Both the position numbers and the translations under genes were made by a program. The notes below the pieces were generated by a model. It saw nothing but the letters and a program-made list of their open reading frames with translations. It had not been told where the DNA came from and did not search any database. From positions 186,001-250,000 of the forward strand of contig NZ_QGTR01000001.1 in assembly GCF_003182275.1 (NCBI RefSeq): a DNA stretch of 64,000 nt, written 5' to 3'. The DNA is from Hoeflea marina. Lineage in GTDB: Bacteria; Pseudomonadota; Alphaproteobacteria; Rhizobiales; Rhizobiaceae. Shown in pieces: positions 20,999-50,310 of the stretch; within the stretch, counting starts at the first letter, position 1; each line of letters begins with the position of its first letter.

Positions 20999-21048
20999 AA
21001 TTGGGACCTTGCGCGCCGCAACCCGCACTTCATTGGGAACTCTGAAGA

Positions 21049-21078: not shown

Positions 21079-21105
21079 TTGATTCTCAGGTCTGGAGTCG
21101 CGGGA

Positions 21106-26200: not shown

Positions 26201-26407
26201 ATCTCCGTGTGAGGCCGACCGGTTTCATGCTATGGAATCGCCGTGTTGTCATGGCCACACTGTCAGGGTTCGACCGATGCCGGACCTTTCAATCGGGCTT
26301 GCGGCCCTATTTTGCGCACATTGTCCGGGCTAAGCCGGATGGTAGGCCACAAGGCCATGCCGGTGTGAATTCGCCTGTTTGTGTAAACCGTCAACGGTAA
26401 GAGAATA

Positions 26408-35190: not shown

Positions 35191-35213
35191 GTTTACACAA
35201 ATGATTAGCATTT
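35191..35213. promoter_or_regulatory. Candidate operator upstream of the dehydrogenase-hydratase operon
   Basis: GTTTACACAAATGATTAG precedes CATTT; AAATG (35199-35203), 5-nt spacer, CATTT (35209-35213) is a perfect inverted repeat. Its half-site ACAAATG and the preceding TTTACA also occur between the LysR gene and the transporter operon (45451-45472), suggesting one regulator for both. Confidence 0.45.
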
Positions 35214-35293
35214 ATTCCTTTTTGTTAGAAACGCTCACAGCTATAAATGCCGCTCCATCATTCACGGTCATCGAGGCGGTTTTGTCGGCAAGC

Positions 35294-36010
35294 ATGCAAG
35301 AAATGGACGTATCGGTCTGGCGCGGCGACGCGAGCGGCGGTGGGCTCGAGCATTTCAGGGTCCCGGCCGAGGAAAGCCAGACCATTCTGGATGTCGTGGC
35401 CTGGATCCAGCAATATGCCGATCCGACGCTGTCCTACCGCTACGCATGCCGGGTCGGCATGTGCGGCTCCTGCGCCATGATGGTCAACGGCGTGCCGCGC
35501 TGGACCTGCCGCACCCATGTCAAGAAGGTGCTCAAGGACAACGCCATCACCATCGAGCCGCTGCGAAACCTGCCGGTGATCAAGGATCTGGCCGCCGACA
35601 TGGATCCGTTCTTCGACAAATGGGTGGCGGCCGGCGGCGTCCATCACCCCACGAAGACGCGCAACGAGCCAATCGAGATCCTCGATCCGAAGACGCCGGA
35701 GCGCGTGGAGACCGATACCGGCATCGAATGCATCAACTGCTCGGTATGCTACGCGGCCTGCGACACGGTCTCCAGCAATGTCGATTTTCTCGGGCCTGCC
35801 GCATTGCAGCGGGCCTGGACCATCTATCTCGATCCCAAGGATGCCGATCCGAATGTCATTCTCGACGCCGTATCCGGCAAGGGCGGCTGCCACAACTGCC
35901 ACAGCCAGGGCAGTTGCACGCTGCACTGCCCCAACGGGCTCAACCCGATGAAGGCGATCGCCGGCCTCAAGCGCGCCACCGTTGCCTCCTTTTTCAAGGG
36001 CGGGCGCTAG
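35294..36010 (+). CDS. Succinate dehydrogenase/fumarate reductase-like iron-sulfur subunit
   Basis: From the ATG at 35294 the product is 238 residues; the ATG at 35303 is nearly as good. All three cluster motifs are present: C52/C57/C60/C72 for [2Fe-2S], C146/C149/C152 with C212 for [4Fe-4S], and C156/C202/C208 for [3Fe-4S]. The last motif, CHNCHSQGSCTLHCPNGLNP, carries one extra cysteine. It would pass electrons from the flavoprotein to the membrane quinone site. Being first in a B-C-D-A operon and next to a hydratase marks it as a paralogue distinct from housekeeping sdhCDAB. Confidence 0.92.
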   Translation: MQEMDVSVWRGDASGGGLEHFRVPAEESQTILDVVAWIQQYADPTLSYRYACRVGMCGSCAMMVNGVPRWTCRTHVKKVLKDNAITIEPLRNLPVIKDLAADMDPFFDKWVAAGGVHHPTKTRNEPIEILDPKTPERVETDTGIECINCSVCYAACDTVSSNVDFLGPAALQRAWTIYLDPKDADPNVILDAVSGKGGCHNCHSQGSCTLHCPNGLNPMKAIAGLKRATVASFFKGGR

Positions 36011-36011
36011 C

Positions 36012-36341
36012 ATGCTCGGCCTGAGGCTCTACATGGCGCAAAGGCTGAGCGCGATGGTGATGATCCCGCTGACGCTGGGCCATATCGCGGTGATGATCTA
36101 CGCCATCCAGGGTGGCCTCAGCGCCGCCGAAATCCTTGGTCGCACCAAGGGCAGCGTCGTCTGGTTCCTGTTCTACGGTCTGTTCGTGCTTGCCGTGTCG
36201 CTGCATGCCTCGATCGGCCTGCGCGTTATCGTCCACGAAACGCTCGGCCTCAAGGGCCGGGGGCTCGAGATCTTCATGTGGCTTTCGGGAATCCTGCTGC
36301 TGGCAACCGGCCTGCGCGCGCTGTTTGCGGTGACGCTATGA
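36012..36341 (+). CDS. Succinate dehydrogenase-like membrane anchor, first subunit
   Basis: 109 residues with three hydrophobic segments (about 14-32, 53-73, 85-105). Start MLGLRLYMAQRLSAMVMIPL resembles SdhC N-termini, and SLHASIGLRVIVHE supplies the likely haem-ligand histidine. It follows the iron-sulfur gene by 1 bp and overlaps the next gene by ATGA. It anchors the complex and helps form the quinone site. Confidence 0.85.
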   Translation: MLGLRLYMAQRLSAMVMIPLTLGHIAVMIYAIQGGLSAAEILGRTKGSVVWFLFYGLFVLAVSLHASIGLRVIVHETLGLKGRGLEIFMWLSGILLLATGLRALFAVTL

Positions 36342-36679
36342 TCCGGCCGCACCGCTCGCATCCGCTGTGGATCGCCTATCTCCTGCACCGGCTCTCCGGG
36401 CTTGGCCTGGCGCTGTTCCTGCCCGTGCATTTCTATGTGCTGGCCTTCGCGCTCAATGAGCCCGAGCGGCTCGACGGCTTCCTGCGCTTTGCCGACAACC
36501 CGCTGGTCAAGATCGCCGAGTTCGGCCTGGTCTTCCTGCTCGCCGTCCATGTCTTCGGCGGACTTCGGCTTCTGGCGCTGGAGTTCCTGCCCTGGTCACC
36601 GCGGCAGAAGACGCTGGCCGCCTCCGCGGTCGCTGCCGCCTTCCTGGTGGCCGGCACCTTTTTCCTGCAGGCGGTGTAA
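36338..36679 (+). CDS. Succinate dehydrogenase-like membrane anchor, second subunit
   Basis: 113 residues, three transmembrane segments. LLHRLSGLGLALFLPVHFYV carries the H-R-x-SG pattern of SdhC-type anchors and LAVHVFGGLRLLALEF a second haem/quinone-side histidine. It overlaps the preceding gene by 4 bp. Both anchors look SdhC-like rather than one SdhC and one SdhD. Confidence 0.85.
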   Translation: MIRPHRSHPLWIAYLLHRLSGLGLALFLPVHFYVLAFALNEPERLDGFLRFADNPLVKIAEFGLVFLLAVHVFGGLRLLALEFLPWSPRQKTLAASAVAAAFLVAGTFFLQAV

Positions 36680-36681
36680 AG

Positions 36682-38442
36682 ATGAGCATGACCAGCATTG
36701 AACGGCACGACACCGATATCCTGATCCTCGGCACCGGCGGCGCCGGCATGTTCGCGGCGCTGCACGCCATGCAGACGGCGCCTTCGGGCACCAAGGTGAC
36801 CATCGCGGTCAAGGGCCTGATCGGCAAATGCGGCTGCACCCGCATGGTGCAGGGCGGCTACAATGTGGCGCTCGGCGGCGGCGACACCGTCGAGCGGCAC
36901 TTCATGGACACGATCAATGGCGGCAAGTGGCTGCCCAACCAGGACATGGCCTGGAAGCTGTGCGAGCAGGCGGTGGTGCGGGTGCGCGAACTCGAAAACG
37001 AGATCGGCTGCTTCTTTGACCGCAACGCGGACGGCACGCTGCACCACAAGGCATTTGCGGGCCAGACCGCCGACCGCACCGTGCACAAGGGCGATCTCAC
37101 CGGCATCGAGATCATCAACCGGCTGATGGAGCAGGTGCTCTCGCGTCCGGTGGAAAAGCTGCAGGAACACCGCGCCATCGGCCTGATTCCGACCAAGGAC
37201 GGCTCGGCGCTGGCGGGCGTGCTGATGATCGACATGCGCACCGGAAAATTCCGCTTCGTGCGCGCCAAGACCGTGCTGATGGCGACCGGCGGCGGACCGA
37301 CCATGTACAAGTATCACACCCCATCGGGCGACAAGACCATGGATGGTCTGGCCATGGCGCTGCGCGCCGGCCTGCCGCTGCGCGACATGGAGATGGTGCA
37401 GTTCCACCCGACCGGCCTGCTGGCCGGCGACCACACCAAGATGACCGGCACGGTGCTGGAGGAGGGGTTGCGCGGAGCCGGCGGGCAGTTGCTCAACGGT
37501 GCGGAACGCCGCTTCATGTTCGACTATGACGATCGCGGCGAACGCGCCACCCGCGACGTGGTCTCGCGCGGCATCTACGCAGAAATGCAGAAGTCCAACA
37601 CCACCAGCAATGGCGGCGTCTACATCAAGATGAGTCATCTCGGCCCCGAGATGGTGCGGCAGAAATTCTCCGGCATGGTCAAGCGCTGCGCCGATTCCGG
37701 CTTCGATCTGGCCGGCGGCCTGGTCGAGGTGGTGCCGACAGCGCACTACTTCATGGGGGGCGTGGTGGTGGACACCGACACCCGCACCGAGATGGAAGGC
37801 CTCTATGTGGCTGGCGAGGACGCCGGCGGCGCCCACGGCTCCAACCGGCTCGGCGGCAACGGCGTTGCCAATTCCACCGTCTATGGCGGCGTGGCCGGCG
37901 ACGTCATGGGGATGGACATCCGCAAGATGGGCGCATTGCGCGACCCTGACGAGAGCGTGCTCGACGCCGAGATCGCGCGCGCCTGCCAGCCGCTCGCCCG
38001 GAAGCCCGCCAATATCCAGGATCTGCGCCACCGGCTGCAGGAGGCGATGTGGGAGGATGTCGGCGTCATCCGCACCCGCCGCGGCATGCAGCGCGGTATC
38101 GACCGGGTGGCGGAGATTTCCGACGAGCTGATGGAATCGGGTGTCGCCTCTACCAATCTGGCCTTCAACCTGACCTGGCACGACTGGCTCAATGTGCGGT
38201 CGCTGTGCGATGTCTCCGAAGTCATCGCCGAAGCCGGGCTGGCGCGGGAGAATTCCCGCGGCGCCCATTATCGCGAGGATTTCCCGGAGTCCGGCGACCT
38301 CGACAGTTCCTATTTCACCGTTGCCCGGCAGCGGGACGGCGACATCGATGTCAGCCGCGAGCCGGTGCAATTTTCCATCGTCCGGCCGGGTGAGACCATC
38401 CTGCCCGCCGGCGAACCCGAAACCCTGGTGGAGGCAAGCTGA
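36682..38442 (+). CDS. Succinate dehydrogenase/fumarate reductase-like flavoprotein subunit
   Basis: A 586-residue FAD protein. ILGTGGAGMFAALHAM is the dinucleotide fold. Dicarboxylate-site residues are kept: H242 (QFHPTG), R291 (ERATRDVVSR), H355 (PTAHYFMGG) and R389 (GSNRLGGNG). The histidine that covalently binds FAD in SdhA/FrdA is replaced: the aligned position is C52 in KCGCTRMVQGGYNVAL. Thus FAD is probably non-covalent (or Cys-linked, less likely), and the potential and substrate range may differ. The gene overlaps the hydratase alpha gene by one base (TGATG), arguing for a dehydrogenation-then-hydration pathway. Confidence 0.9.
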   Translation: MSMTSIERHDTDILILGTGGAGMFAALHAMQTAPSGTKVTIAVKGLIGKCGCTRMVQGGYNVALGGGDTVERHFMDTINGGKWLPNQDMAWKLCEQAVVRVRELENEIGCFFDRNADGTLHHKAFAGQTADRTVHKGDLTGIEIINRLMEQVLSRPVEKLQEHRAIGLIPTKDGSALAGVLMIDMRTGKFRFVRAKTVLMATGGGPTMYKYHTPSGDKTMDGLAMALRAGLPLRDMEMVQFHPTGLLAGDHTKMTGTVLEEGLRGAGGQLLNGAERRFMFDYDDRGERATRDVVSRGIYAEMQKSNTTSNGGVYIKMSHLGPEMVRQKFSGMVKRCADSGFDLAGGLVEVVPTAHYFMGGVVVDTDTRTEMEGLYVAGEDAGGAHGSNRLGGNGVANSTVYGGVAGDVMGMDIRKMGALRDPDESVLDAEIARACQPLARKPANIQDLRHRLQEAMWEDVGVIRTRRGMQRGIDRVAEISDELMESGVASTNLAFNLTWHDWLNVRSLCDVSEVIAEAGLARENSRGAHYREDFPESGDLDSSYFTVARQRDGDIDVSREPVQFSIVRPGETILPAGEPETLVEAS

Positions 38443-39404
38443 TGATCCCCATAGATCTCATTCAAAGGACCGCCGAGACCCTGATGGACAAGGCGGCGAT
38501 CGAAATCCCGCAGGACTATCTCGACGGGCTGCAGGCGGCCGCCAATGTCGAGGACGGGGACCTGTCGTCCTTCGTGCTCGAGGCGATGCTGGAAAACTAC
38601 AAGGCGGCCAAGGAAGACCGCCGCGCCATGTGCGGCGACACCGGCACGCCGCGCTGGTACGTCAAGATGGGCAACGAGACACGGATCGAGGGCGGCCCGA
38701 TCGCGCTCGAGGCGGCGCTCCGCCGCGCCACCGCCAACGCCACCAATGGCGTGCCGCTGAGGCCCAACCGGGTGCATCCGCTGTGGCGCACGGATCATGA
38801 CAACAATGTCGGCATCGGTGCTCCGGAAATCGAATATGGCTACGAGCCGGGCGGCGAGTGGATTGACCTGATCACCGTGCACAAGGGCGGGCTGTTCGGC
38901 ACCGACTACCGAATGCTGTTTCCCTCCGACGGCATCCAGGGCATCAAGCGCTTCTATCTCGATTGCCTGGTGGCCTTCGGCAAGCGCGGGCTTGCCTGCC
39001 AGCCGGCGATCATCGGCATCGGACTGGGCGGCTGCAAGGACACCTGCATGGTGCTCGGCAAGCGCGCCGCCTGCCTGCGCGTGGTGGGTTCGCGCAATTC
39101 CGATCCGCGCATTGCCGAGCTGGAGCTGGAACTCAAGGAACTGGGCAATTCCATCGGCATGGGCGCCATGGGATTTGTCGGCAAGTCGATGGTCATCGAC
39201 GCCAACATCGAGGTAGGCTATTGCCACACCGGCGGCATGCAGATGTCGGTGCACGCCTTCTGCCTCTCATCGCGCCGCGCCGTGGCGCGGGTCTTTGCCG
39301 ACGGACGGGTGGAATACCGCACCGATCCGGACTGGTTCACCGATTATCAACGCCGGGAGACAGTGGAATGGGAAATGCCTCAAAACCACGAAAAATCCGC
39401 CTGA
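38442..39404 (+). CDS. Class I fumarase/tartrate dehydratase-type hydratase, alpha subunit
   Basis: 320 residues. The three cysteines expected to bind the [4Fe-4S] cluster are C64 (MCGDTGTP), C198 (GLGGCKDT) and C274 (HAFCLSSRRA). IGIGLGGCKDTCMVLGKRA is typical of the family, which includes two-subunit fumarases, L-tartrate dehydratase and mesaconase. It would add water to, or remove it from, a C4-type dicarboxylate in the cytoplasm. The beta gene overlaps its end by 37 bp. Which dicarboxylate is used cannot be read from the sequence. Confidence 0.92.
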   Translation: MIPIDLIQRTAETLMDKAAIEIPQDYLDGLQAAANVEDGDLSSFVLEAMLENYKAAKEDRRAMCGDTGTPRWYVKMGNETRIEGGPIALEAALRRATANATNGVPLRPNRVHPLWRTDHDNNVGIGAPEIEYGYEPGGEWIDLITVHKGGLFGTDYRMLFPSDGIQGIKRFYLDCLVAFGKRGLACQPAIIGIGLGGCKDTCMVLGKRAACLRVVGSRNSDPRIAELELELKELGNSIGMGAMGFVGKSMVIDANIEVGYCHTGGMQMSVHAFCLSSRRAVARVFADGRVEYRTDPDWFTDYQRRETVEWEMPQNHEKSA

Positions 39405-40048
39405 GTACCACGCCGACGCCGGAAGCGCTGGCGGAGCTGCGATTGGGCGACGTCGTCTATCTCGACGGGCTGATCTACACGGCGCGGGAAGGCGTCTACA
39501 AGCGCGCGCTTGAAGAAAACGCCAACATTCCGATGGAGCTTCCGTCGGAGAGTGCCGCCAATTTCCATTGCTCGCCGGCCGCCGCCATCAACGAGGACGG
39601 CACGTTTCGACTGGGCGCCGTCACCGCCACCGCGTCGTTCCGCTTCACAAAGTGGATCGGCGACTGGATGGCGCGCTCAGGCGCCAAGCTGATCATCGGC
39701 AAGGGCGGCATGAGCGCCAAGGACTACAAGGAGCATTTCGTCCCCAACGGCGCCATTTACCTGACCACGGTCGGCTACGGCACCGGCGCGCTGCTCGGGC
39801 GCGGCGTCAAGCGGGTCAAGGCGGTGCACTGGAACAAGGAACTGGGCCTGGCCCAGGCCATGTGGGTGCTGGAGGCCGACAATATGGGGCCGTTCATCGT
39901 CGAAAGCGACCTGGCCGGCAACTCGCTGTTCGAGCGCGAAAACGCCAAGATTTCGGCCAACCTGGCCCGCGTCTATGAAGGCACAGTTCCCGCCGTGCTC
40001 AAGCGCTTCGGCGAGACCGACGACCGCTCGGACGAGATGATCGGCTAG
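39368..40048 (+). CDS. Class I fumarase/tartrate dehydratase-type hydratase, beta subunit
   Basis: 226 residues from the ATG at 39368. Family features are GDVVYLDGLIYTARE, LIIGKGGMS, NGAIYLTTVGYGTGALL and NKELGLAQAMWVLEADNMGP. In most class I enzymes the substrate loop reads like TTSxRM; here it is TATASFRF, a possible sign of altered specificity. It forms a heterodimeric catalytic unit with the alpha subunit. The next gene starts 3 bp later. Confidence 0.92.
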   Translation: MGNASKPRKIRLSTTPTPEALAELRLGDVVYLDGLIYTAREGVYKRALEENANIPMELPSESAANFHCSPAAAINEDGTFRLGAVTATASFRFTKWIGDWMARSGAKLIIGKGGMSAKDYKEHFVPNGAIYLTTVGYGTGALLGRGVKRVKAVHWNKELGLAQAMWVLEADNMGPFIVESDLAGNSLFERENAKISANLARVYEGTVPAVLKRFGETDDRSDEMIG

Positions 40049-40051
40049 GCC

Positions 40052-41158
40052 ATGACAACCAGCGACAATCCCTTTGCGGGCTATGGCGGCCGCATCGCCA
40101 CCGACGACGGTGTCTACAGCCAGTCCGAAGTGGGGCTTGCCAACCGCAATTCCGGCAATCTGCTCGAGACCCTGGCGCTGGATGTGACGCCGACGGGGCT
40201 GCATTATCTGCTCATCCATTTCGATGTCCCGCTCATCGATCCGGCGGCGCACCGGCTGACATTCTCGGGCGCCTTCGATGCGCCCTTCGAACTGGGGCTC
40301 GACGATATCAGGGCGCTGCCGCAGGTGACGCTGCCGGTGACGCTCGAATGCGCGGGCAACGGCCGCTCCGGATTGTCGCCGCGGTCGCACTCGATGCCGT
40401 GGATGTACGAGGCGGTCGGCACCTCGGAATGGACCGGGACGCCGCTCAGGCCGCTGATCGAGCGCGCCGGGCCGAAGGACGATGCGGTCGAGATCGCCTT
40501 CCTCGGCGAGGACTACGGCTTCGACAAGGGCGTCGGCCACCATTTCGGCCGGTCCCTGACCATGGCCCAGATCGCCGAACTCGACGTCATGCTGGTGCAT
40601 TCGATGAACGGCCAGCCGCTGCTGCCGCAGCACGGCGCGCCGCTGCGGCTGATCGTGCCGGGCTGGTACGGCATGGCAAGCGTCAAATGGCTGGGGAAGA
40701 TCGAGGCGCTGACCACGCCCTTCGACGGCTTCCAGCAGGTGCGCACCTACCGTTTTCGCGAGAATGACGAGGATCCGGGACGTCCGGTCACCGAGATGCG
40801 GGTCAAATCGCTGATGGTGCCGCCGGGCGTGCCCGACTGGAGCTCGCGCAAGCGCTGGCTCGAACCCGGTCCGGTCACGCTGGTCGGCCGCGCCTGGTCC
40901 GGTGGCGGCGTGTCGGTGAGCAAGGTCGAGGTCGAACTCGACGGCGAATGGCGCGAGGCCCGGCTCGACCGGCGCGCAGGCCCTTATGCCTGGACCCGGT
41001 GGAGCTGCGACTGGACCGCCACGCCCGGCGTCCATCTGCTGCGCTGCCGCGCCACCGATGCCAACGGCAATGTGCAGCCGCTCGACCCGCCCTGGGATGT
41101 TTCCGGCTTTGCCAACAATTCCGCCCAAAAGGTGTTTGTCTTCGTCGCCGACTCCTGA
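40052..41158 (+). CDS. Sulfite oxidase-family molybdopterin oxidoreductase, no export signal
   Basis: 368 residues. The molybdenum-cofactor domain contains the Mo-ligand cysteine C100 in LECAGNGRSG and SVKWLGKIEALTTPFDGF. The C-terminal Ig-like dimerisation domain (about 245-360) includes VGRAWSGGGVSVSKVEVELD. Members oxidise sulfite to sulfate or related substrates. No Tat signal precedes the domain, so it is probably cytoplasmic, unlike rhizobial periplasmic SorT. Its place directly after the hydratase genes, with TauE- and YeiH-type exporters nearby, suggests sulfite made by the pathway is oxidised. Enzyme activity is inference. Confidence 0.85.
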   Translation: MTTSDNPFAGYGGRIATDDGVYSQSEVGLANRNSGNLLETLALDVTPTGLHYLLIHFDVPLIDPAAHRLTFSGAFDAPFELGLDDIRALPQVTLPVTLECAGNGRSGLSPRSHSMPWMYEAVGTSEWTGTPLRPLIERAGPKDDAVEIAFLGEDYGFDKGVGHHFGRSLTMAQIAELDVMLVHSMNGQPLLPQHGAPLRLIVPGWYGMASVKWLGKIEALTTPFDGFQQVRTYRFRENDEDPGRPVTEMRVKSLMVPPGVPDWSSRKRWLEPGPVTLVGRAWSGGGVSVSKVEVELDGEWREARLDRRAGPYAWTRWSCDWTATPGVHLLRCRATDANGNVQPLDPPWDVSGFANNSAQKVFVFVADS

Positions 41159-41245
41159 CACTTGGTCCCTTCCGCCAGACGTTCCAAGCTTCCATGATCC
41201 GCGGCGTTCGCCGACCGGTCGATTTCTGAAATGTGAAATGTAAAA

Positions 41246-42259
41246 ATGAGTCAGTTTGCCGATCTCGTCTATGTCCGCAAAGCCCGGGTGCTGTTTCCCG
41301 GCGTTCTCACCTCGCTGACCGTGGCCTTTGCCGCCAAATTCATCTCCGAGCATTACGGCGCGCCGGTGATGCTGATGGCGCTGCTCATCGGCATGGCCTT
41401 CAACTTCCTGGTCGAGGACGGCGGCACATGCGTGGCCGGCATCGAGTTCTCCTCCAAGGTGCTGTTGCGCTTCGGCGTGGCGCTGCTCGGCCTCGGCATC
41501 ACGGTGCAGCAGATCGCCTCGACCGGCTCGGAGGTGCTGCTGATCACGCTGACAGGCGTGGCGCTGACCATTGCCATGGGACTGGCGCTGTCGCGCTTTC
41601 TCGGTCGCGGCGCCCGCTTTGGACTGCTGATCGGCGGCGCAGTGGCGATCTGCGGCGCCTCGGCGGCGCTGGCCATTTCCTCGGTGCTGCCCAAGAGCGA
41701 GACGCTGGAGCGCGACACCATCTTCACCGTCATCGGGGTGACGGCGCTCAGCACGCTGGCGATGATCGTCTATCCGATCATTGCCGACCTGATGCATCTG
41801 AGCGAAGTGGCGACGGGTGTGTTCTTCGGCGCCACCATTCATGACGTGGCGCAGGTGGTCGGCGCGGGATATTCGGTCTCGGAGCTTGCGGGTGACACTG
41901 CCACCTTCGTCAAGCTGCTCCGCGTGGCGCTGCTGGTGCCGATCGTCGTGGTGCTGTCGCTGGTCTTCTCGGGCTCGCGCGAGCCGGGCGCCAGGCGCTC
42001 GCTGCCGATTCCGTTCTTCGTCATCGGCTTTGCGGCACTGGTGATCGCCGGCTCCTATGATCTGGTGCCCGTCGAGGTCAAGGACGGGCTGCTGTCGTTC
42101 TCGCGCTGGTGCCTGGTCGTGGCGATCGCGGCGCTCGGCATGAAGACGTCGCTCAGGAAGCTCGGCGATGTCGGCGGCAGCGCCATCGTGCTGATCTGCG
42201 CGCTGACCGGCATTCTCGCCGTCTTTGCGCTCACCGCCATCAAGATCTACATGAATTGA
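41246..42259 (+). CDS. YeiH-family (UPF0324) putative sulfate exporter
   Basis: 337 residues with about ten hydrophobic segments. It begins MSQFADLVYVRKARVLFPGV and carries GVALLGLGITVQQIA, FGLLIGGAVAICGASAALAI and GATIHDVAQVVGAGYSVSEL, characteristic of the putative sulfate exporter family (YeiH and sulfonate-cluster relatives). It is an inner-membrane protein. In a pathway releasing sulfite or sulfate it would export the sulfur end-product. Confidence 0.88.
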   Translation: MSQFADLVYVRKARVLFPGVLTSLTVAFAAKFISEHYGAPVMLMALLIGMAFNFLVEDGGTCVAGIEFSSKVLLRFGVALLGLGITVQQIASTGSEVLLITLTGVALTIAMGLALSRFLGRGARFGLLIGGAVAICGASAALAISSVLPKSETLERDTIFTVIGVTALSTLAMIVYPIIADLMHLSEVATGVFFGATIHDVAQVVGAGYSVSELAGDTATFVKLLRVALLVPIVVVLSLVFSGSREPGARRSLPIPFFVIGFAALVIAGSYDLVPVEVKDGLLSFSRWCLVVAIAALGMKTSLRKLGDVGGSAIVLICALTGILAVFALTAIKIYMN

Positions 42260-42282
42260 GCGGCTTGCAGAGGAGAGTTCAC

Positions 42283-42603
42283 GTGAGCAGGTTTGTCGAC
42301 GAGCGCATCTACACGCTGAAAGCCGGGCAGGTTCCGGTGTTCCTGAAGCTCTACGAGGAGGAGGGGATGGAGGTGCAGGTCCGCATTCTCGGCCGGATGG
42401 TCGGCTATTACTTCACCGACATCGGTCCGCTCAACCAGATCGTCCACATGTGGGGCTATGACAGCCTCGACGATCGCTACGAGCGACGCAAGCTGCTGCA
42501 GGCGGCGCCCGAATGGCAGAGTTACGCCGCCAAGATGCGGCCGCTGGTCGCCCATGTGGAAAACAAGATCCTAGTGCCGGCGCCGTTCTTCAAGGCGGCG
42601 TGA
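42283..42603 (+). CDS. NIPSNAP family protein
   Basis: 106 residues from the GTG at 42283, supported by gaggagag. The start (VDERIYTLKAGQVPVFLKLY) and GRMVGYYFTDIGPLNQIVHM with WGYDSLDDRYERR define the NIPSNAP dimeric ferredoxin-like fold. Its function is unknown; such proteins often occur in catabolic operons. It ends 11 bp before the convergent enolase-superfamily gene. Confidence 0.88.
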   Translation: MSRFVDERIYTLKAGQVPVFLKLYEEEGMEVQVRILGRMVGYYFTDIGPLNQIVHMWGYDSLDDRYERRKLLQAAPEWQSYAAKMRPLVAHVENKILVPAPFFKAA

Positions 42604-42614
42604 TCGTCACGGGT

Positions 42615-43754
42615 TCAACTCCGGCTCAGTTCCAGCGTCCGGTATCGCGCGAGACTGTCCGGCAACGTCTCGAAGCCAAGTCCCGGAGCGTCCGCGATCG
42701 CGAAGACACCATCCCTGCACATGCCGCCATCGAAGAAGGCGTCGCGCAGCGGATTGGCGTTGATGTCCACCTCAAGCAGGCCATCGCCGCCGGCGGCGGC
42801 CAGCAGATGGCCCGAAGCAATGAGCCCTATGCCGCCGCCGAGAAAATGCGGGCAGTAGGTCTTTCCTCCGCCAACAATGGCCTGGCCGATCCGGTAGCAG
42901 CCTGTGACGCCGCCCCATTTGGCAACGTCCGGCTGGATGAAGCGAAAAGTCCCCGAGCCGATGGCCGCGTCGAAACTGTCAAAGCCGGTGATATTCTCGC
43001 CGGCGGCGAGCGGAATGCCGCTGGCTTTTGCCAACTCGGCCCACTGGTCCCCCGGCATGTCGGCGCGGATCGGCTCTTCGAGCCAGCCGAGATCGAAACC
43101 TTGGGCCGCGTCGACGAAGGCAAGTGCCTGGCCGAGATCCCAGGCCTGGTTGGCGTCTGTGAAGATGCGCTCGCCGTCGCGGCGATCGGCGCACAATGCG
43201 GCAAGCTGTGCGAGATCGGTTTCGGCGTCGAAGCCGATCTTCACCTTTTTGGCCAGATAGCCCAACTCGCGCACCTCAGGCACGATGGTCGCGGCCGCGG
43301 CGATGTGGATGCCGCTGGCATAGGCGGGCACGGATGCAGCCGCATCGCGATTGAGGTGGCGGGCGAGCGACACGCCTTGGCGGCGCGCGAAGAGATCGTG
43401 CATGGCGGTGTCGAGGCCGGCGATCACCTGCGCGAAGGGGCCCCATTCGCCGCATTGCAGGGCGCGGATATGGGTTCTCGCCATCAGGTGCCCGAACAGG
43501 TCGGAGGCGGCCTCTGCGCGGAAGCCGATAACCAGGTCGGCGATGTCCTCCATCAGCAGCCGCGCCCGGTGTTCGGCACCTGCGGCGGGCCAGTTGGCGA
43601 AGATCTCGCCCCAACCGAATGCGCCGTCCGCATCGGTCAGACGCACGAACACGGCCGGCCGGTTGGTCATGGCGCCGAACGAGGTCATGACCGGCGTGGA
43701 AATCGGAACCCGGTAGGCGGAAACCTCGATGCGGGCAATGTCGGAATGGGTCAC
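42615..43754 (-). CDS. Enolase-superfamily (mandelate racemase/muconate lactonizing) enzyme
   Basis: 379 residues. The capping domain starts ARIEVSAYRVPISTPV; the barrel holds K170-x-K172 (KKVKIGFD), metal ligands D200 (TDANQAWD), E226 (LEEPI) and E253 (AGENI), and H303 (CPHFLGGG). This set suits acid-sugar or hydroxy-acid dehydratases and racemases, among them D-tartrate dehydratase. It acts in the cytoplasm on an alpha-proton of a carboxylate. It overlaps the TauE-like gene by ATGA, so it is the last gene of the LysR unit. Confidence 0.9.
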   Translation of the reverse strand: MTHSDIARIEVSAYRVPISTPVMTSFGAMTNRPAVFVRLTDADGAFGWGEIFANWPAAGAEHRARLLMEDIADLVIGFRAEAASDLFGHLMARTHIRALQCGEWGPFAQVIAGLDTAMHDLFARRQGVSLARHLNRDAAASVPAYASGIHIAAAATIVPEVRELGYLAKKVKIGFDAETDLAQLAALCADRRDGERIFTDANQAWDLGQALAFVDAAQGFDLGWLEEPIRADMPGDQWAELAKASGIPLAAGENITGFDSFDAAIGSGTFRFIQPDVAKWGGVTGCYRIGQAIVGGGKTYCPHFLGGGIGLIASGHLLAAAGGDGLLEVDINANPLRDAFFDGGMCRDGVFAIADAPGLGFETLPDSLARYRTLELSRS

Positions 43755-44497
43755 CAGAATATCTCCCTTGCAAGCAGGACCGTGCCGGAGACGAACATCA
43801 GGGCGATGATCAGTCGGCGGAACTGGTCGTCATTCAGTCGTTTGAAGGTGACGATGCCGATCTGGGCAAAGATCAGCGTCACCGGCAGCGTCACCGCGAT
43901 CAGCTTCAGCGTGTGAAAGCCGTAGACGCCCTTGATCGCGAAGCCCGCGGCCGTCAGCCCGAGCACGATGACGTTGAAAGGCTGCAGAACGGCGCGGATC
44001 TCGGCCTTCGGCCATGGCCGCATCGAGCACCACATCGTGGGCAGCGCGCCCGACAGCGAGGCGGCGCCGCCCAGCACGCCACCGAGAAAGCCGATGACGC
44101 CGTCGACGACAGGCGTCGGTCGTTCGAAGCGGGGCAGGGCGGATCTCAGCGAGAAGAAGCCGCCATAGAGGATCATCATCGCCGCGATCACCAGCTTGAT
44201 GACAAGCGGTGGAAAGATCGACAGGGCTGCGATGCCGGCTGGGATGCCGACGATCGCCGGCACCAGAAAGCGCGCCAGCCGCCTCGGATTGTCGAGCACC
44301 GAGCGCCGCACCACCCAGACGCCCTGCAGCCCGCTGACGACGGACATCAGCGCGATCAGCGACACGGCTTCGAGCGGCGGCAGGATCTGCAGCCAGAAGC
44401 CGAGCGCGAACATGGCGGTGCCGAACCCCGCCAGGCCGTTGACGAAGCCGCCCAGCGCGGCTCCGGCGGCCAGGATGGCAATGAATTCAATGGTCAC
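43751..44497 (-). CDS. TauE/SafE family sulfite/organosulfonate exporter-like protein
   Basis: 248 residues with about eight transmembrane segments in two repeats; [20 protein letters not shown] and [20 protein letters not shown] are the paired family motifs. TauE/SafE proteins export sulfite, sulfoacetate and other small anions. It is sandwiched between the LysR gene (overlap 11 bp) and the enolase-superfamily gene (overlap 4 bp). Together with the sulfite-oxidase-family enzyme it supports a sulfur-anion by-product, but family members also carry other substrates. Confidence 0.88.
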
Positions 44498-45404
44498 TTC
44501 GGGGCGGTGTCCTCAATGTTGCGGGCGGAAAGGCGCCGAATGCGACGGCTTCGAGCAGCTTGCCGTGGATTTCCTCGATCACCCGCCCCTTGGTGGTGTC
44601 GGCGCGGCTGATCAGGCCGAGATGCCGCACCGGGCCGTCCGGCAGCGGCAGCCGCTTGAGCGGCAGCGGGTTGGCGCTCTGGAAGCAGCGGCGGGGGGCG
44701 ATGGAGACACCGAGATTGCACAGCACCATGGTGGAGATCGCCTCCAGCCCTTCCAGTTCCATGCTGTCGCGAACATCGATCTTCTGCTGCTGCAGCCAGG
44801 TCTCGATCAGGTCGCCCACCACGGCGTCGCGGGTGAAGCGGATGAAGGGGTTGGTCCTGAGCAGGTGCACGGGATCGTTGCTCTCGGTCTCGAGCGATGC
44901 CAGCAATTGCAGCGGCTCGATGGCGATTTCCAGCCAGCCGAGGCCGCGCGGGATCAGCTTCGGCCTGGAGATGACCGCGGCATCGAGATGGCCGCGCTCG
45001 ACCTGATGCAGCAACTGGTTGGTCAGCCCGGGCTGCACGGCGACATGCAGATCGGGAAAGGTGGTCTTGAGCAGCGAGATCGCCATCGGCGCCAGCCCTG
45101 CCAGCGTCGTCGGCACCGCGCCGAGAATCAGGTGACCCCTCAGACCGTCATCGCCGAGCACCGACGGCACCAGATTGTCATAGGCGCGCACCACCTCGCG
45201 CGCCTTCTCCACCAGGGTGCGGCCGATCGGGGTGAGTTCAGGCGTTCGCTTGGAGCGGTCGAAGATGGCGATCTTCCACTCTTCCTCCAAAGCCTTCATC
45301 TGCTGGCTGACGGCGGCGTGGGTCACGAACACCGCGTCGGCGGCGGCGCTGAATGTGCCATGTTCGGCGACTGCGAGCAGTGTCTTGAGCAACCGTATCG
45401 ACAT
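44487..45404 (-). CDS. LysR-family transcriptional regulator
   Basis: 305 residues from the ATG at 45404 ([20 protein letters not shown]). The winged helix-turn-helix covers residues 1-60 ([20 protein letters not shown]), the periplasmic-binding-like effector domain 90-290 ([20 protein letters not shown]). It is divergent from the TctCBA operon with 161 bp between starts, where several inverted repeats lie. It probably activates that operon in response to the transported acid, and may also act on the dehydrogenase-hydratase operon. Confidence 0.93.
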
Positions 45405-45422
45405 CAAAAGTCCGTCTTGAAA

Positions 45423-45472
45423 TGTAAGCAAATGTTACAAAACCTGTAACCATTTGTGGCTTTTTACAAATG
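45423..45472. promoter_or_regulatory. LysR-type operator region between lysR and tctC
   Basis: TGTAA (45423-45427), 7-nt spacer, TTACA (45435-45439) fits a LysR-type dyad. CATTTGT (45451-45457), 8-nt spacer, ACAAATG (45466-45472) is a second perfect dyad, and TGTAA/TTACA recurs at 45445-45449/45464-45468. Confidence 0.6.
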
Positions 45473-45565
45473 TGACTTACCAATATGGTTTTTGCAATGG
45501 CTTAGTTGTCCGGCGGGAGGAAAATGCTTCCGGATGATTTGAGGCCATCCAACCGGGAGGAAGTT

Positions 45566-46543
45566 ATGAATTTCACAAAAATCGGCATGGCGTGCGCGCT
45601 CACGCTCGGAATGACGGCGACGGCGGCACTGGCCGAATACCCCGAGCGCCCGATCAACATGATCATCCCCTACGGCGCCGGCGGCGCCACCGACATTTCC
45701 GCCCGCGCGATCGCAGAGGCGCTGACGGCGGCAGCCGGCACGCCGATGGTCATGTCGAATGTCACCGGCGCCGGCGGCGCCACCGGCTCGGTGGCGGTGC
45801 AGAATGCCAAGGGCGATGGCTATACCATGCTGTTTGCCCGTGTCGGATCGCACACGGTCAATCCGGCGATGAAGGCAACGCTGCCCTACACGCTCGCCGA
45901 CTTCCGCTTCGTCACCGTCTATGAGATCAACCCCGTCGTCTGCGCCGTCACCCCGGCGTCCGGCATCAATTCGATGGACGATCTGATTGCCAAGGCCAAG
46001 GAAGGCGGTGTGTCCTACTCGTCGTCCGGAGTGGGTTCGCTGCTGCAGCTGGCGGCCGTGATGGTGCTCAAGGAGTTCGGCATCGAGGATCCGCTCAACA
46101 CCACCGTCCACATCCCGCAGAAGGGCGGCGGCGAGGCGGCAACGGCCGTGCTCAACGGCACGGTGACCTTCATCTGCACCAACTCTTCTGCGCTCGCGGG
46201 CTTCGTCGCCAATGGCCAGCTCAAGCCGCTTCTGGTGACCACGCCCGAACGCCTGGGCGGCTTTGATGCACCGACGGCGACAGAACTGGGCAAGCCGTCA
46301 CTGGAGCAACTGGTGGGCTGGACCGGGATCGCAGGACCCGCCTCGCTGACCGACGAGGTTGCCGCCAAATGGGGCGAGTGGATGGCCACGGCCGTCAAGG
46401 ACGAGAAGTTTCTTGCCGTCATGGAGAAGGCCGGTTCGGTCATCGACCTGATGAGCCCCGATGAAGCCAAGGCCTTCATCGACGGTCAGTACGAAACCTT
46501 CCGCAAACTCGTTGACGAGCTCGGCATGCGCATCGAAGGCTAG
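45566..46543 (+). CDS. tctC: Tripartite tricarboxylate transporter substrate-binding protein (TctC/Bug family)
   Basis: 325 residues from the ATG at 45566, preceded by gggaggaag. A signal peptide (FTKIGMACALTLGMTATAA) leads to EYPERPINMIIPYGAGGATD, the hallmark Bug-protein N-terminus, and GAGGATGSVAVQNAKGDGY. It binds a carboxylate in the periplasm for the TctAB permease. Bug proteins bind many di- and tricarboxylates and some aromatic acids, so the ligand is open. It is the first gene of the divergent operon. Confidence 0.92.
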   Translation: MNFTKIGMACALTLGMTATAALAEYPERPINMIIPYGAGGATDISARAIAEALTAAAGTPMVMSNVTGAGGATGSVAVQNAKGDGYTMLFARVGSHTVNPAMKATLPYTLADFRFVTVYEINPVVCAVTPASGINSMDDLIAKAKEGGVSYSSSGVGSLLQLAAVMVLKEFGIEDPLNTTVHIPQKGGGEAATAVLNGTVTFICTNSSALAGFVANGQLKPLLVTTPERLGGFDAPTATELGKPSLEQLVGWTGIAGPASLTDEVAAKWGEWMATAVKDEKFLAVMEKAGSVIDLMSPDEAKAFIDGQYETFRKLVDELGMRIEG

Positions 46544-46622
46544 TCCGATCAACAACTGAGATTGAAGAATGCGCCGGATCACGTGAAAATCCGGCGCATT
46601 CTGCGAGCGGGAGGAGCTACGG

Positions 46623-47114
46623 GTGCACGATCGATCAATTCAACTTCAACTGGGCATCGGGGCTGTCATTGCCGCCGCTTTCCTGTTGCTGGTCGCCATT
46701 CCCACCTGGGTCTCTTCGCCCAGCAACGTCCCAAACATCATCCTCTCGCCGCTGTTCTGGCCCTGGGTGCTGTCGGGCCTCACCGGAATCACCGGTCTCG
46801 GCATGATCGTGACCGCGCTGCGCGATCCGGCATCCACCGAACCTGAAGCCAGCGATGTCGATGACAGGTCCCGGGCCTGGGGCCGCCTCGTAAGCGTCGC
46901 CGCACTGATGGGGCTGACCATGGTGCTCATGCCGCGCATCGGCATGGTCTGGACCTCGATGCTTGTGTTCGCCGCCACCGCGTTCCTCGTCCGCACCAGC
47001 CATCCGAAGACCGCGCTCGTCAGCGCGGTTCTGGTGCCGCTGGTGCTTTATGCATTCTTTGCCCATGTCGCCGGCGTTGCGATACCGCAAGGCGATTTTG
47101 TGAGGCTTCCATGA
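46623..47114 (+). CDS. tctB: Tripartite tricarboxylate transporter small subunit (TctB family)
   Basis: 163 residues from a GTG at 46623 (gggaggagct upstream). Four hydrophobic segments, with VPNIILSPLFWPWVLSGLTG near the start, fit the small four-TM TctB subunit. It overlaps tctA by ATGA. Confidence 0.85.
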   Translation: MHDRSIQLQLGIGAVIAAAFLLLVAIPTWVSSPSNVPNIILSPLFWPWVLSGLTGITGLGMIVTALRDPASTEPEASDVDDRSRAWGRLVSVAALMGLTMVLMPRIGMVWTSMLVFAATAFLVRTSHPKTALVSAVLVPLVLYAFFAHVAGVAIPQGDFVRLP

Positions 47115-48625
47115 GTTTTACCGATAATCTGATGCTCGGGCTTTCGCTGGTCGCCAACGTCGAGAGTTTCATCGCCCTTGGCCTGGGGGTCGCCGTGGGC
47201 GTCATCGCCGGGGCCATTCCCGGCATGTCCGCCACCATGGCCGTGGCGCTGACCTTGCCCTTCACCTTCGCGCTGCAGCCGATCACCGGCATCTTGCTGC
47301 TGCTTGGCGTCTACAAGGGCGGGATCTTCGGCGGCTCCATTCCCGCCATTCTGATCAAGACCCCGGGCACGCCGGCCTCCTCCGCCACCGTGCTTGACGG
47401 CTATCCGCTGGCCGAAAAGGGCCAGGCCGGCAAGGCGCTGGGCATGGCGCTGTGGGCCTCCTGCACGGCCGATCTGATCTCCAATCTGGCGCTGATCCTG
47501 TTTGCGGGCTTTCTCGCGTCCTTCGCTCTCAACTTCGGCCCGCCGGAGTTCTTCACGCTGATGCTGTTCTCGCTGACCATCATTGCCGGCGTCTCCGGCG
47601 ACAGCCTGCTGCGTGGCGCGCTGTCGGCGATGCTCGGCCTGCTGCTCGCCACCGTCGGCCTCGACCTCATCTACGGCACCAACCGCTTCACCTTCGGCGA
47701 CGCCAATCTGATGGGCGGGCTCAATTTCATCGCCGTCCTTATCGGGCTGTTCGCCATTCCCGAGATCATCGCCATGGTCTGGAACCCCAGGGCCTTCGAC
47801 GGCCAGAAGCGCTCGATGGGCAAGAGCTGGGTGACCTTCGCCGACTACCGACGCTGCTTCAAGTCGATCGTCCGCGGCAGCTTCATCGGCGTCTTTCTCG
47901 GCGCCATCCCGGGCATCGGCGCCGCCCCCTCGGCCTTCCTGTCCTATTCGGAGGCGCGCCGCACCTCGCCCAACAAGGCCAATTTCGGCAAGGGCGAACT
48001 GGAAGGCGTGGCCGCCGCGGAGGCCGGAAACAACGGCGTCGCCGGCGCGACCCTGATCCCGCTCCTGGCGCTCGGCATCCCGGGCGATGTCATCACCGCC
48101 ATCATCATCGGCGCCTTCATGATCCATGGCCTGCAGCCCGGACCGATGATGTTCGTGCTCAACGCCGACATCATCTATGCGCTGTTCATGGGCCTCATTG
48201 TCAGTTCGGTGTTCCTGTTCTTCATCGGCACCGTGGCGATCCACGGGTTCAAATACGTCGCCGACATTCCCCGCGGCGTGCTGTTTCCCGCGGTCCTGGT
48301 GCTCTGCATCTTCGGCGTCTTCGCGGTCAACAATTCGATCTTCGACGTCGGCGTGATGTTTGTCATGGGATGGGTCGGCTATTTCATGATGCGCTACAAG
48401 GTTCCCGCCGCGCCGTTTCTCATTGCCTTCATTCTCGGGCCGCTGCTGGAGGACAATTTCCGCCAGGCCATGCTGATGTCGGGGAGTTCGCCGGTGATCC
48501 TGTTCCGCGGCCCCATCACCTGGTTCTTCTGGACGCTGACGGCGATCACCGTCTTCGCCATCATCCGCGCCGGCATCAAGGCCACGCGCAGGCATGGTCC
48601 ATTGACGACGGCGAACCAGGAATAG
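47111..48625 (+). CDS. tctA: Tripartite tricarboxylate transporter large subunit (TctA family)
   Basis: 504 residues with about eleven transmembrane segments. The family signatures GAIPGMSATMAVALTLPFTF, GGSIPAILIKTPGTPAS and GAIPGIGAAPSAFLSYSEAR are present. It is the main permease, coupling uptake to the membrane ion gradient. It lies in the tctCBA order directly before a thiamine-diphosphate enzyme. Confidence 0.95.
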   Translation: MSFTDNLMLGLSLVANVESFIALGLGVAVGVIAGAIPGMSATMAVALTLPFTFALQPITGILLLLGVYKGGIFGGSIPAILIKTPGTPASSATVLDGYPLAEKGQAGKALGMALWASCTADLISNLALILFAGFLASFALNFGPPEFFTLMLFSLTIIAGVSGDSLLRGALSAMLGLLLATVGLDLIYGTNRFTFGDANLMGGLNFIAVLIGLFAIPEIIAMVWNPRAFDGQKRSMGKSWVTFADYRRCFKSIVRGSFIGVFLGAIPGIGAAPSAFLSYSEARRTSPNKANFGKGELEGVAAAEAGNNGVAGATLIPLLALGIPGDVITAIIIGAFMIHGLQPGPMMFVLNADIIYALFMGLIVSSVFLFFIGTVAIHGFKYVADIPRGVLFPAVLVLCIFGVFAVNNSIFDVGVMFVMGWVGYFMMRYKVPAAPFLIAFILGPLLEDNFRQAMLMSGSSPVILFRGPITWFFWTLTAITVFAIIRAGIKATRRHGPLTTANQE

Positions 48626-48687
48626 CCCGGCCAGCCACAACCCCATGATGCAACAGGCCCGACCCGTTCGGTCAGGGCCCGACAAGG

Positions 48688-50310
48688 ATGAACTCGATGC
48701 GCGGTGCAGATCTTCTGGTGCAGACACTGGCCATGGCCGGCGTGACGAAAATCTTCTCGCTCTCCGGCAACCAGATCATGCCGGTCTACGACGCCTGCCT
48801 CGACGCGGGCATCGAGATCATCCACACGCGACACGAAGGGGCCGCGGTGTTCATGGCCGACGCCTGGGCGCAGCTGACCGGCGAGATCGGCGTCGCCCTG
48901 GTGACGGCAGCTCCGGGTGCGGCCAATGCCGTCGGACCGCTGTTCTCGGCCCGCCAGTCGGAGAGCCCGGTTCTGCTGCTGACGGGCGATTCGCCGCTTG
49001 GTCAGGACGGGAGGGGCGCCTTCCAGGAATTCGACCAGGTGCCGATGACGGCGCCACTCACCAAGCTGTCGACGCGGGCGCAGTCTGCCGCGACGCTGGG
49101 ACAGACCGTGGCTCTGGCCATTCGCACCGCGCTGTCGGGACGGCCGGGACCGGTGCATGTCGCCCTGCCGTTCGACGTGGTCGAGGCCGATGCCGGTGAC
49201 TCCGCCGTGCCCGCCGCCGCCTCGATGGTGCGCGACCATTCGCCGGTCGACGGGGATGAGCTGAAGCGGGTTCTCGAGGCCGTGGCTGCCGCCAGCACGC
49301 CACTGGTGCTGTGTGGGCCGGCGATGAACACCACACGCCAGGGCACCGTTCTCACCGCCCTGCAGGATGCGCTTGATGTGCCGGTCGTGGCGATGGAAAG
49401 CCCGCGCGGCCTCAAGGATCCGTCGCTGGGCGATTTCGCCAAGGCCCTTGGCCAGGCCGATCTGGTGATCTCGCTCGGCAAGCCGGTCAATTTCACCCTT
49501 GGTTTCGGCGGAGCGGCGGTGACCGCTCCCGGCTGCCGCTGGATCGTCATCGACTCCGATGCGCCCGAGCGCAAGCGCGCGGCCCTCAATCTCGGCGACC
49601 GGCTGGCGCTGGCGATCGACGCCGATCCGCTCGATGCGGCGGGTCAGCTCATGGATTCGGGCGAGGGGGCAGGCGCCCGCCGCGCCTGGCGCAAGCAGGT
49701 GGCGACATTGATTGCCGCCCGTTCCTATGATGCCGCCGCACCCGGCGCCGAGGGCAAAATCAGTTCCGCGCAACTGGTGGCAGCCGTGCAACGCCGGATC
49801 GAGGCTGCCGACGAAGCGGTGCTGGTCTGCGATGGCGGCGAGTTCGGCCAATGGGCCCAGGCGGGCGCTCATGCCGCCGAGCGCGTCATCAACGGCCCGT
49901 CGGGCGCCATCGGCGGCGGGCTCTGCTACGCGCTTGCCGCCCGGGCGGCACGACCGGACGCCACCGTGTTCGCGCTGATGGGTGACGGCACCGTGGGCTT
50001 CCATTTCGCCGAGTTCGAGACGGCCGCGCGCGAAAACCTGCCGTTCGTCGTCGTCATCGGCAATGACGAGTGCTGGAACGCCGAGCATCAGATCCAGTTG
50101 CGCGAATATGGCAGGGACCGGCTGATCGGCTGCCAGCTGAGCGCTGCCCGCTACGACCTGGCGGTGGCGGCGCTCGGCGGCCACGGCGAGCATGTCACAG
50201 ACGCGGCCGAACTTGATGCGGCGCTCGGCCGCGCGGTCGCATCCGGCAAGGTGGCCTGCGTCAATGTCGCCATCGACGGGCAGCCGGCGCCGAGCGGATC
50301 GGCCCACTGA
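48688..50310 (+). CDS. Thiamine diphosphate-dependent enzyme (acetolactate synthase/decarboxylase-like)
   Basis: 540 residues (ATG at 48688; the ATG at 48697 has a better-spaced ribosome-binding site). The Pyr domain holds the catalytic glutamate E50 in HTRHEGAAVFMADAWAQL; a middle Rossmann domain follows. The PP domain has the cofactor motif MGDGTVGFHFAEFETAAREN with the closing asparagine in GNDECWNAEH. It belongs to the broad acetolactate synthase/benzoylformate decarboxylase group acting on 2-oxo acids. The substrate is unknown; it is probably the last catalytic gene of the transporter operon. Confidence 0.88.
   Translation: MNSMRGADLLVQTLAMAGVTKIFSLSGNQIMPVYDACLDAGIEIIHTRHEGAAVFMADAWAQLTGEIGVALVTAAPGAANAVGPLFSARQSESPVLLLTGDSPLGQDGRGAFQEFDQVPMTAPLTKLSTRAQSAATLGQTVALAIRTALSGRPGPVHVALPFDVVEADAGDSAVPAAASMVRDHSPVDGDELKRVLEAVAAASTPLVLCGPAMNTTRQGTVLTALQDALDVPVVAMESPRGLKDPSLGDFAKALGQADLVISLGKPVNFTLGFGGAAVTAPGCRWIVIDSDAPERKRAALNLGDRLALAIDADPLDAAGQLMDSGEGAGARRAWRKQVATLIAARSYDAAAPGAEGKISSAQLVAAVQRRIEAADEAVLVCDGGEFGQWAQAGAHAAERVINGPSGAIGGGLCYALAARAARPDATVFALMGDGTVGFHFAEFETAARENLPFVVVIGNDECWNAEHQIQLREYGRDRLIGCQLSAARYDLAVAALGGHGEHVTDAAELDAALGRAVASGKVACVNVAIDGQPAPSGSAH

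Follow-up and report, generated by a model that had tools for sequence, protein, structure and literature searches.

A candidate sulfonate catabolic module built from succinate dehydrogenase and fumarase paralogues in Hoeflea marina

The six-gene core and its distribution

We examined a block of genes at 35191-50310 of a 64,000-nucleotide stretch of DNA from Hoeflea marina (positions 186,001-250,000 of NZ_QGTR01000001.1; this whole stretch is the window, and coordinates without a locus label refer to it). The block opens with six genes, here called the core, that encode a succinate dehydrogenase (SDH)-like complex in the order sdhB-C-D-A followed by the two subunits of a class I fumarase-like hydratase, fumA-fumB. 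We consider it probable that the substrate class of this module is some sulfonate; for the fuller reading, in which the locus is a sulfonate catabolic module made from SDH and fumarase paralogues with sulfosuccinate as the leading substrate, the case from sequence comparison is evenly poised. The core genes are:

35303..36010, + strand: SDH-like iron-sulfur subunit, sdhB (PF13085, Fer2_3/Fer4)
36012..36341, + strand: SDH-like membrane anchor C (PF01127, Sdh_cyt)
36338..36679, + strand: SDH-like membrane anchor D (PF01127, Sdh_cyt)
36682..38442, + strand: SDH-like flavoprotein, sdhA (PF00890, FAD_binding_2, and PF02910, Succ_DH_flav_C)
38442..39404, + strand: class I fumarase-like alpha subunit, fumA, part of the proposed sulfonated-alkene hydratase (PF05681, Fumerase)
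39368..40048, + strand: class I fumarase-like beta subunit, fumB (PF05683, Fumerase_C)

A sequence-only reading made earlier had begun sdhB at 35191; its family assignment stands, and the likelier start is the ATG at 35303. fumB starts at the ATG at 39368 and overlaps fumA, and from sdhB through the sulfite-oxidase-type gene that follows the core, adjacent genes overlap or lie 1-3 bases apart. The block is an extra SDH/fumarase set, additional to other copies in the host, because the 5.26 Mb genome also holds a second gene matching Succ_DH_flav_C (163 bits, contig C5) and, on contig C1, a 550-amino-acid frame for a single-chain class I fumarase.

A scan with the alpha-subunit alignment returned at least 540 related stretches. 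The best 80 of these were analysed as loci (labelled L), a set that leans toward close relatives and includes some near-duplicate records, and neighbours were counted in 58 of them, the other 22 having less than 6 kb of sequence before the core or less than 7 kb after it. All six core genes are present in 77/80 loci and in 58/58 of the well-flanked ones; the three incomplete cases (L058, L073 and L100) are short records in which fumA lies close to the record end. The same arrangement of the six genes is found again in distant members of Rhizobiales, Rhodobacterales, Cupriavidus and Pseudomonas, and so is not due to chance. The core family is widespread in marine and soil Alphaproteobacteria and reaches Cupriavidus and Pseudomonas.

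Conserved and altered residues in the two core enzymes

In its four-subunit plan, its two anchors and its catalytic positions, the SDH-like complex resembles succinate dehydrogenase and fumarate reductase (E. coli SdhA and FrdA) and L-aspartate oxidase. The B-C-D-A subunits are all present, and in an alignment to E. coli FrdA the flavoprotein keeps the residues at His232, Glu245, Arg287, His355 and Arg390, which we take, with the FrdA numbering, to include the catalytic His, Glu and Arg. It differs from these enzymes in having Cys52 at the position of what is presumably the histidine that links flavin adenine dinucleotide (FAD) covalently, and Glu260 at the position of FrdA Thr244, which we take to be a substrate-site residue. 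Both replacements occur in 101/101 homologues, those of Rhodococcus and haloarchaea included, whereas the host's other copy has Thr at the second position; identity to the host's other copies is ~30%. The flavoprotein scores below TIGR01812 (410 of 567 bits; scores are given against each model's cut-off) and TIGR01816 (330 of 727 bits), and indeed under every NCBIfam cut-off among the models listed. Two haloarchaeal plasmids (L125, Haloarcula GH36; L126, Natribaculum) carry the C52/E260 flavoprotein and an iron-sulfur subunit, with no annotated anchors or class I hydratase; their neighbours are an ArgH-family gene, TauE and a UxaA-family pair, and the best model for an Ldh-type gene in L125 is L-sulfolactate dehydrogenase (339 of 500 bits).

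The hydratase is likewise built on a familiar plan, that of the two-subunit class I fumarase / L(+)-tartrate dehydratase (M. jannaschii 7xky), with which it shares the three iron-sulfur Cys and the Asp, Arg, Thr, Arg and Lys of the active site. Reference positions (Gln134, Gly216, R421, T467, R471, K491) follow Leishmania fumarase. Retained in the alpha subunit are the iron-sulfur Cys together with D66 and R107. In the beta subunit the Arg, Thr, Arg and Lys aligned with R421, T467, R471 and K491 are present as R38, T86, R90 and K110 in 93/93 homologues (at least 45% identity), and F91 stands where three of four others have Met. The Cys ligands and the catalytic Thr, Arg and Lys expected of a class I fumarase or tartrate dehydratase are thus all present, whereas the substrate contacts are not: Gly/Ala65 stands for Gln134 and Leu151 for Gly216 in 96/96 homologues, so that relative to the M. 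jannaschii type a Gln has become Gly or Ala, a Gly/Ala/Glu position has become Leu, and four or five extra Arg/Lys have been gained. These are R71, R110, R157 and K199 (96/96) and R61 (95/96); eight other class I alpha subunits are without them, the sole exception being a Lys at 157 in L127. The hydratase passes the broad domain model TIGR00722 (202 of 101 bits) and falls under the equivalog cut-offs of PRK06246 (190 of 276 bits) and PRK08230 (143 of 365 bits).

In both core enzymes, therefore, catalytic residues are kept and pocket residues are changed family-wide, which we count in favor of a sulfonate module. The family-specific Arg/Lys set would suit better a more anionic (trianionic) substrate. 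In Methylobacterium radiotolerans, M. oryzae and Rhodococcus RHA1 the partner of the C52/E260 flavoprotein is another class I hydratase, in which Gln134 is retained and the added Arg/Lys are absent, and in these three SuyB-like genes lie on the flavoprotein plasmid; this type may be a three-carbon (C3) version of the system and the window type a four-carbon (C4) version.

Sulfite genes, an induced relative and sulfolactate pathways

The rest of the block, with one gene that diverges from the core on its left, consists of:

34492..35106, - strand: glutathione S-transferase (GST), accessory (PF02798)
40052..41158, + strand: sulfite-oxidase-family molybdoenzyme, accessory (PF00174, Oxidored_molyb, and PF03404, Mo-co_dimer)
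41246..42259, + strand: predicted YeiH-family anion (sulfate/sulfite) exporter (PF03601)
42283..42603, + strand: NIPSNAP-family small protein (PF07978, 96 bits)
42615..43754, - strand: enolase-superfamily enzyme of the mandelate racemase type, MR_MLE (PF13378 and PF02746)
43751..44497, - strand: predicted TauE/SafE-family exporter (PF01925)
44487..45431, - strand: LysR-type regulator (PF03466 and PF00126)
45566..46543, + strand: TctC solute-binding protein (PF03401)
46623..47114, + strand: TctB (PF07331)
47111..48625, + strand: TctA (PF01970)
48688..50310, + strand: thiamine diphosphate (ThDP) enzyme of the acetolactate synthase / 2-hydroxyacyl-CoA lyase type, accessory (PF02776, PF02775)

The gene families named in the sequence-only reading were all found where it had placed them, each above its Pfam cut-off except for the middle domain of the ThDP enzyme (TPP_enzyme_M, 28.4 against 30.4). 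From their order and strands the genes appear to form three transcription units, sdhB-NIPSNAP (+), lysR-tauE-enolase (-) and tctCBA-ThDP (+). The nearest solved chain to the enolase-superfamily product is 3ddm, which has no stated function. Directly downstream of the block lie genes for Ku and LigD, a two-gene bacterial end-joining system (50701-54194), and to its left (18136-28870) are ordinary core genes for an M48 peptidase with TPR repeats, RNase E/G, an AMIN/Amidase_3 protein and a class A penicillin-binding protein.

Neighbours in the 58 well-flanked loci, scored as present at 40% identity or more to a panel protein, are LysR (53), TauE (48), TctA (27), nitroreductase (20), ThDP (18), enolase (12), YeiH, NIPSNAP and an SsuA-like ATP-binding cassette (ABC) transporter (8 each), succinate-semialdehyde dehydrogenase (SSADH)-like (7), GST (4, with counterparts adjoining the core in L024, L032 and L036), sulfite-oxidase type (4) and MmsA-like (2). 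These counts mark the ThDP, enolase, NIPSNAP and GST genes as optional and the two-enzyme core as the heart of the module.

Several lines of evidence tie the core to sulfite. Among 39 of the 40 core genomes (L061 was left out), TauE is found in the loci of 34 against 1.3 expected (296 copies in 184.8 Mb; 0.80 Mb of locus sequence), and YeiH in those of 7 against 0.14 expected (32 copies), although, the genomes being related, the Poisson values are a guide only. Co-location with sulfite export genes is thus beyond chance, as in an organosulfonate catabolic cluster, and the search of neighbourhoods that had been proposed as a check gave a complete core in nearly all loci, with sulfite-export genes enriched nearby. 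A sulfite-oxidase-type gene (at least 40% identity) stands in 3 of the 39 loci; over all 80 loci this gene is present in 7 and YeiH in 10. The window's own gene, 40052-41158, scores below the SorA (179 of 600), SorT (139 of 570) and SoxC (177 of 420 bits) cut-offs; C100, presumably at the position of the molybdenum-binding Cys of sulfite oxidases, is invariant in a four-sequence alignment, and inspection of the protein by eye found no signal peptide. On two plasmids SoxC, SorA or SorT is above cut-off within 7 kb of the core, namely in Methylobacterium nodulans (SoxC 607 of 420, SorA 696 of 600 bits) and Pseudomonas MPC6 (SorT 667 of 570 bits). For the ABC binding protein encoded next to the Paracoccus cores, the top-scoring model is that of the aliphatic-sulfonate SsuA family, at 100 of 163.5 bits and so under the cut-off. 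On a plasmid of Sulfitobacter THAF37, ~9 kb after fumB, there is a gene that bears the label, by name only, of 3-sulfinopropanoyl-CoA desulfinase (L036:22745-23917).

A relative of the block has very probably been seen induced. In Paracoccus strain Merri grown on sulfofucose, a cluster 3 of 11 locus tags, nine of whose proteins are up relative to glucose, is described in PMC12421959 as 'fumarate and tartrate metabolism' and tentatively linked to the Krebs cycle; its seventh tag is that of a TauE homologue. The Merri locus (L085) has 11 genes in a row, sdhB-C-D-A-fumA-fumB-tauE-lysR and three ABC genes, with tauE seventh, and its fumA is the single PF05681 gene of that genome. Since the two agree in number of genes and in the place of TauE, and the genome has only this one fumarase gene, L085 is very probably the cluster 3 induced on sulfofucose, and this cluster of P. 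wurundjeri strain Merri is very probably orthologous to the window block; unlike the window, Merri has an SsuA-like ABC transporter and neither YeiH nor a sulfite-oxidase gene at the core. The block therefore appears to have been seen before as induced, under a Krebs-cycle label, and not recognised as a sulfonate module. The sequence-only reading knew of no described operon with this set of genes: as to function this holds, since in the openly licensed literature we found no functional description of the block and no gene cluster for sulfosuccinate, but the block itself had very probably already been reported as induced, in the part of PMC12421959 just cited.

Sulfolactate degradation (SlcC, ComC and SuyAB, or CuyA / Xsc) resembles the present system in its shared islands, its TctCBA-type transport, named SlcHFG in the cited part of PMC5812351, and its TauE/YeiH export. 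The core is unrelated to SuyAB, CuyA and Xsc, and would act by desaturation and hydration rather than by lyase, pyridoxal phosphate (PLP) or ThDP chemistry. Of the 18 plasmids with the flavoprotein gene, 6 also carry a SuyB-like gene (at least 61% identity) no more than ~22 kb away from it, at 4-5 kb in Methylobacterium and ~19-21 kb in Paracoccus and Rhodococcus. The label is based on a 67% match to the gene beside hpsN/hpsO in Cupriavidus pinatubonensis and on a 94% match in Merri, for which the passage in PMC12421959 names SuyB; the proteins have no NCBIfam SuyB match, galactarate dehydratase being offered far below cut-off. An island in Paracoccus versutus joins the core, YeiH, NIPSNAP, TauE, LysR and Ldh-type and hydroxyacid dehydrogenases (ComC-, SlcC-like) to TctCBA-type genes, a HisD-type gene, SuyA-/SuyB-like genes, a second PF03601-type exporter and a sulfite oxidase.

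SuyB-like genes (at least 71% identity) occur in 12/40 core genomes, and SuyB or an above-cut-off CuyA in 35/40. Most of the 40 are Rhodobacterales, an order in which CuyA and Xsc may be frequent irrespective of the core. Bradyrhizobium Ec3.3 (G082), alone of the 40, gave no SuyB-like match and no above-cut-off CuyA or Xsc, its two CuyA-like proteins scoring below cut-off at 351 and 337 bits. Even so, SoxC-like, SorA-like (contig-cut), YeiH and TauE genes are present at its core locus; this supports a core that itself releases sulfite. Direct release is further supported by the low number of core genomes with SuyB and by genome G017 (99% complete), which gave no SuyB and no above-cut-off CuyA (Xsc was not searched there) although sulfite-oxidase-type, YeiH and TauE genes accompany its core. 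The SuyB count of 12/40 weakens the idea of a core that feeds SuyAB in every case.

Proposed pathway and alternative substrates

In the pathway that we propose, TctCBA would import a small carboxylated sulfonate and the membrane-bound SDH-like complex would remove two hydrogens from its succinate-like backbone, passing the electrons, to judge by its SDH-type anchors, to the respiratory quinone pool. The hydratase would then add water to the sulfonated alkene; with the hydroxyl on the sulfonated carbon, the product would be the bisulfite adduct of a carbonyl compound, which would fall apart into that compound and sulfite. Sulfosuccinate would thus pass through sulfofumarate to oxaloacetate and sulfite with no need of a further gene, and the sulfite would be exported by TauE and YeiH or oxidised by the sulfite-oxidase-type enzyme. 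We infer both reactions, the site of hydration and the substrate from the sequences, and the specific proposal that sulfosuccinate yields oxaloacetate and sulfite with no dedicated carbon-sulfur lyase, the bond breaking by collapse of the adduct, is a tentative one to which we give a little less than an even chance. A Pseudomonas was reportedly found, in an older report, to grow on sulphosuccinate by direct desulphonation.

A sulfonated or substituted C4 acid, first oxidised and then hydrated, had been put forward in the sequence-only reading. The oxidise-then-hydrate logic and the handling of sulfite by exporters and a sulfite-oxidase-type gene are supported, and a sulfonate is favored by the TauE/YeiH enrichment, the SoxC, SorA and SorT genes beside the core, the sulfolactate-lyase neighbours and the probable induction on sulfofucose; the four carbons are not settled, as 3-sulfopropionate obeys the same chemistry. 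In this locus the core's own transcription unit includes sulfite genes, which favors direct sulfite release, whether from a C4 acid or by a branch to malonate semialdehyde.

Several observations weigh against sulfosuccinate as the substrate or against a sulfite-releasing core. Glu260 brings a negative charge to the place in the flavoprotein site where a carboxylate would bind. Eight of the 58 well-flanked loci (L072, L074, L075, L111, L113, L116, L118 and L120) have no TauE, YeiH or sulfite-oxidase match at 40% identity or more, and TauE-family proteins have also been proposed as organosulfonate exporters, one being a probable 3-sulfopropionate exporter in the cited part of PMC11489063. Another desulfonase is usually at hand, since SuyB, CuyA or Xsc is present in 39/40 core genomes. 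L085 is matched to cluster 3 by its number of genes, the place of TauE and the lone fumarase gene, not by locus tags, and the induction does not point to a C4 substrate, because the intermediate of the sulfofucose pathway is sulfolactate, not sulfosuccinate. Finally, in six loci (L064, L065, L070, L074, L115 and L124) an unexplained CaiB-type CoA-transferase gene lies between fumA and fumB.

In a C3 route, which we consider rather unlikely, a regulator that senses sulfolactate would readily account for the induction on sulfofucose. Here the SDH-like complex would convert 3-sulfopropionate to 3-sulfoacrylate and the hydratase would make 3-sulfolactate for SuyAB, CuyA or Xsc or, in a variant, add water at the sulfonated carbon to give malonate semialdehyde and sulfite. 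A thesis cited in PMC11489063 has Roseovarius nubinhibens, of a genus that often carries the core, obtain carbon from homotaurine via 3-sulfopropionate, sulfoacrylate and sulfolactate; the two reaction types are the same, and the genes are unnamed in the cited passage. The SuyB-like genes near the flavoprotein gene fit this route, as do a PLP gene of the CuyA / D-cysteine-desulfhydrase type between sdhB and sdhC of a distant core (L027:8126-9214; CuyA 340 of 450 bits), the NT-26 core neighbours (an above-cut-off SSADH and a protein for which sulfolactaldehyde reductase is the best match, at 324 of 348 bits) and MmsA after fumB in Pseudomonas MPC6. SSADH-like and MmsA genes are found, however, in only 7/58 and 2/58 well-flanked loci. 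Outside the window's genus the presence of SuyB tracks that of the core (5/8 with the core against 4/35 without it, Fisher P 0.006), but inside that genus it is equally common with the core (5/7) and without it (8/11). The added Arg/Lys are better suited to a trianion, and G082 and G017, with sulfite genes at the core and the desulfonase gaps described above, also speak against the C3 route.

The CoA-transferase inserts, which are of the CaiB/BaiF type and mainly from Roseovarius, are:

L064:5692-6864, CoA-transferase
L065:10891-12099, CoA-transferase
L074:10954-12108, CoA-transferase
L115:10860-12170, CoA-transferase
L124:5345-6517, CoA-transferase
L070:10891-11424, shorter open reading frame

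They are the reason to retain branched five-carbon acids as a rival, with methylsuccinate converted by way of mesaconate to citramalate, followed by CoA transfer and cleavage. CaiB-type CoA-transferase genes lie near the core in 8/80 loci, the six inserts included, their next models being succinate-glutarate (214 of 750 bits) and mesaconate (197 of 700 bits) CoA-transferases, far below cut-off, and in a SAR116 genome (L111:1530-5756) a CoA-transferase, a CitE-type lyase (RipC 156 of 375 bits) and a PrpD-like gene converge on the core's LysR. Methylsuccinate or itaconate gives no place to the sulfite genes, however, and was set aside as the principal explanation; the YeiH, SoxC, SorA, SorT and SuyB neighbours and the sulfofucose induction would go unexplained, and we regard this reading as improbable. 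Sulfite adds to fumarate, and a module that clears the sulfosuccinate so formed in the cell would account for induction in sulfite-releasing cells and for the place beside sulfite genes; dedicated uptake genes adjoin the core in at least 35/58 well-flanked loci, which points instead to a food source and makes such repair, if anything, more improbable still. The chance that the block is an ordinary second tricarboxylic acid (TCA) cycle or tartrate set, as the family names and the possible Krebs-cycle link suggested in the cited passages by the Merri authors (PMC12421959) would have it, is very slight. C52/E260 and G/A65, L151, R71 and R110 differ from the canonical enzymes, whose copies lie elsewhere in the genome, and the scores are below the tartrate and fumarase equivalog cut-offs; a tartrate or TCA duplicate was ruled out as the leading explanation by the active-site signatures.

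A sulfonate substrate is now likely, and the block is likely to be a variant form of organosulfonate catabolism built from paralogues of TCA-cycle enzymes. If so, many Roseobacters, Paracoccus, Hoeflea-like and other bacteria (at least 540 related stretches) would have turned such paralogues into a sulfonate desaturase and hydratase. Little is known of what becomes of sulfosuccinate, the core of docusate-type surfactants, or of 3-sulfopropionate, and one or the other fate would then have genes assigned to it. The induced cluster left unassigned in a published proteome would be explained, and annotations as fumarase and succinate dehydrogenase would be corrected.

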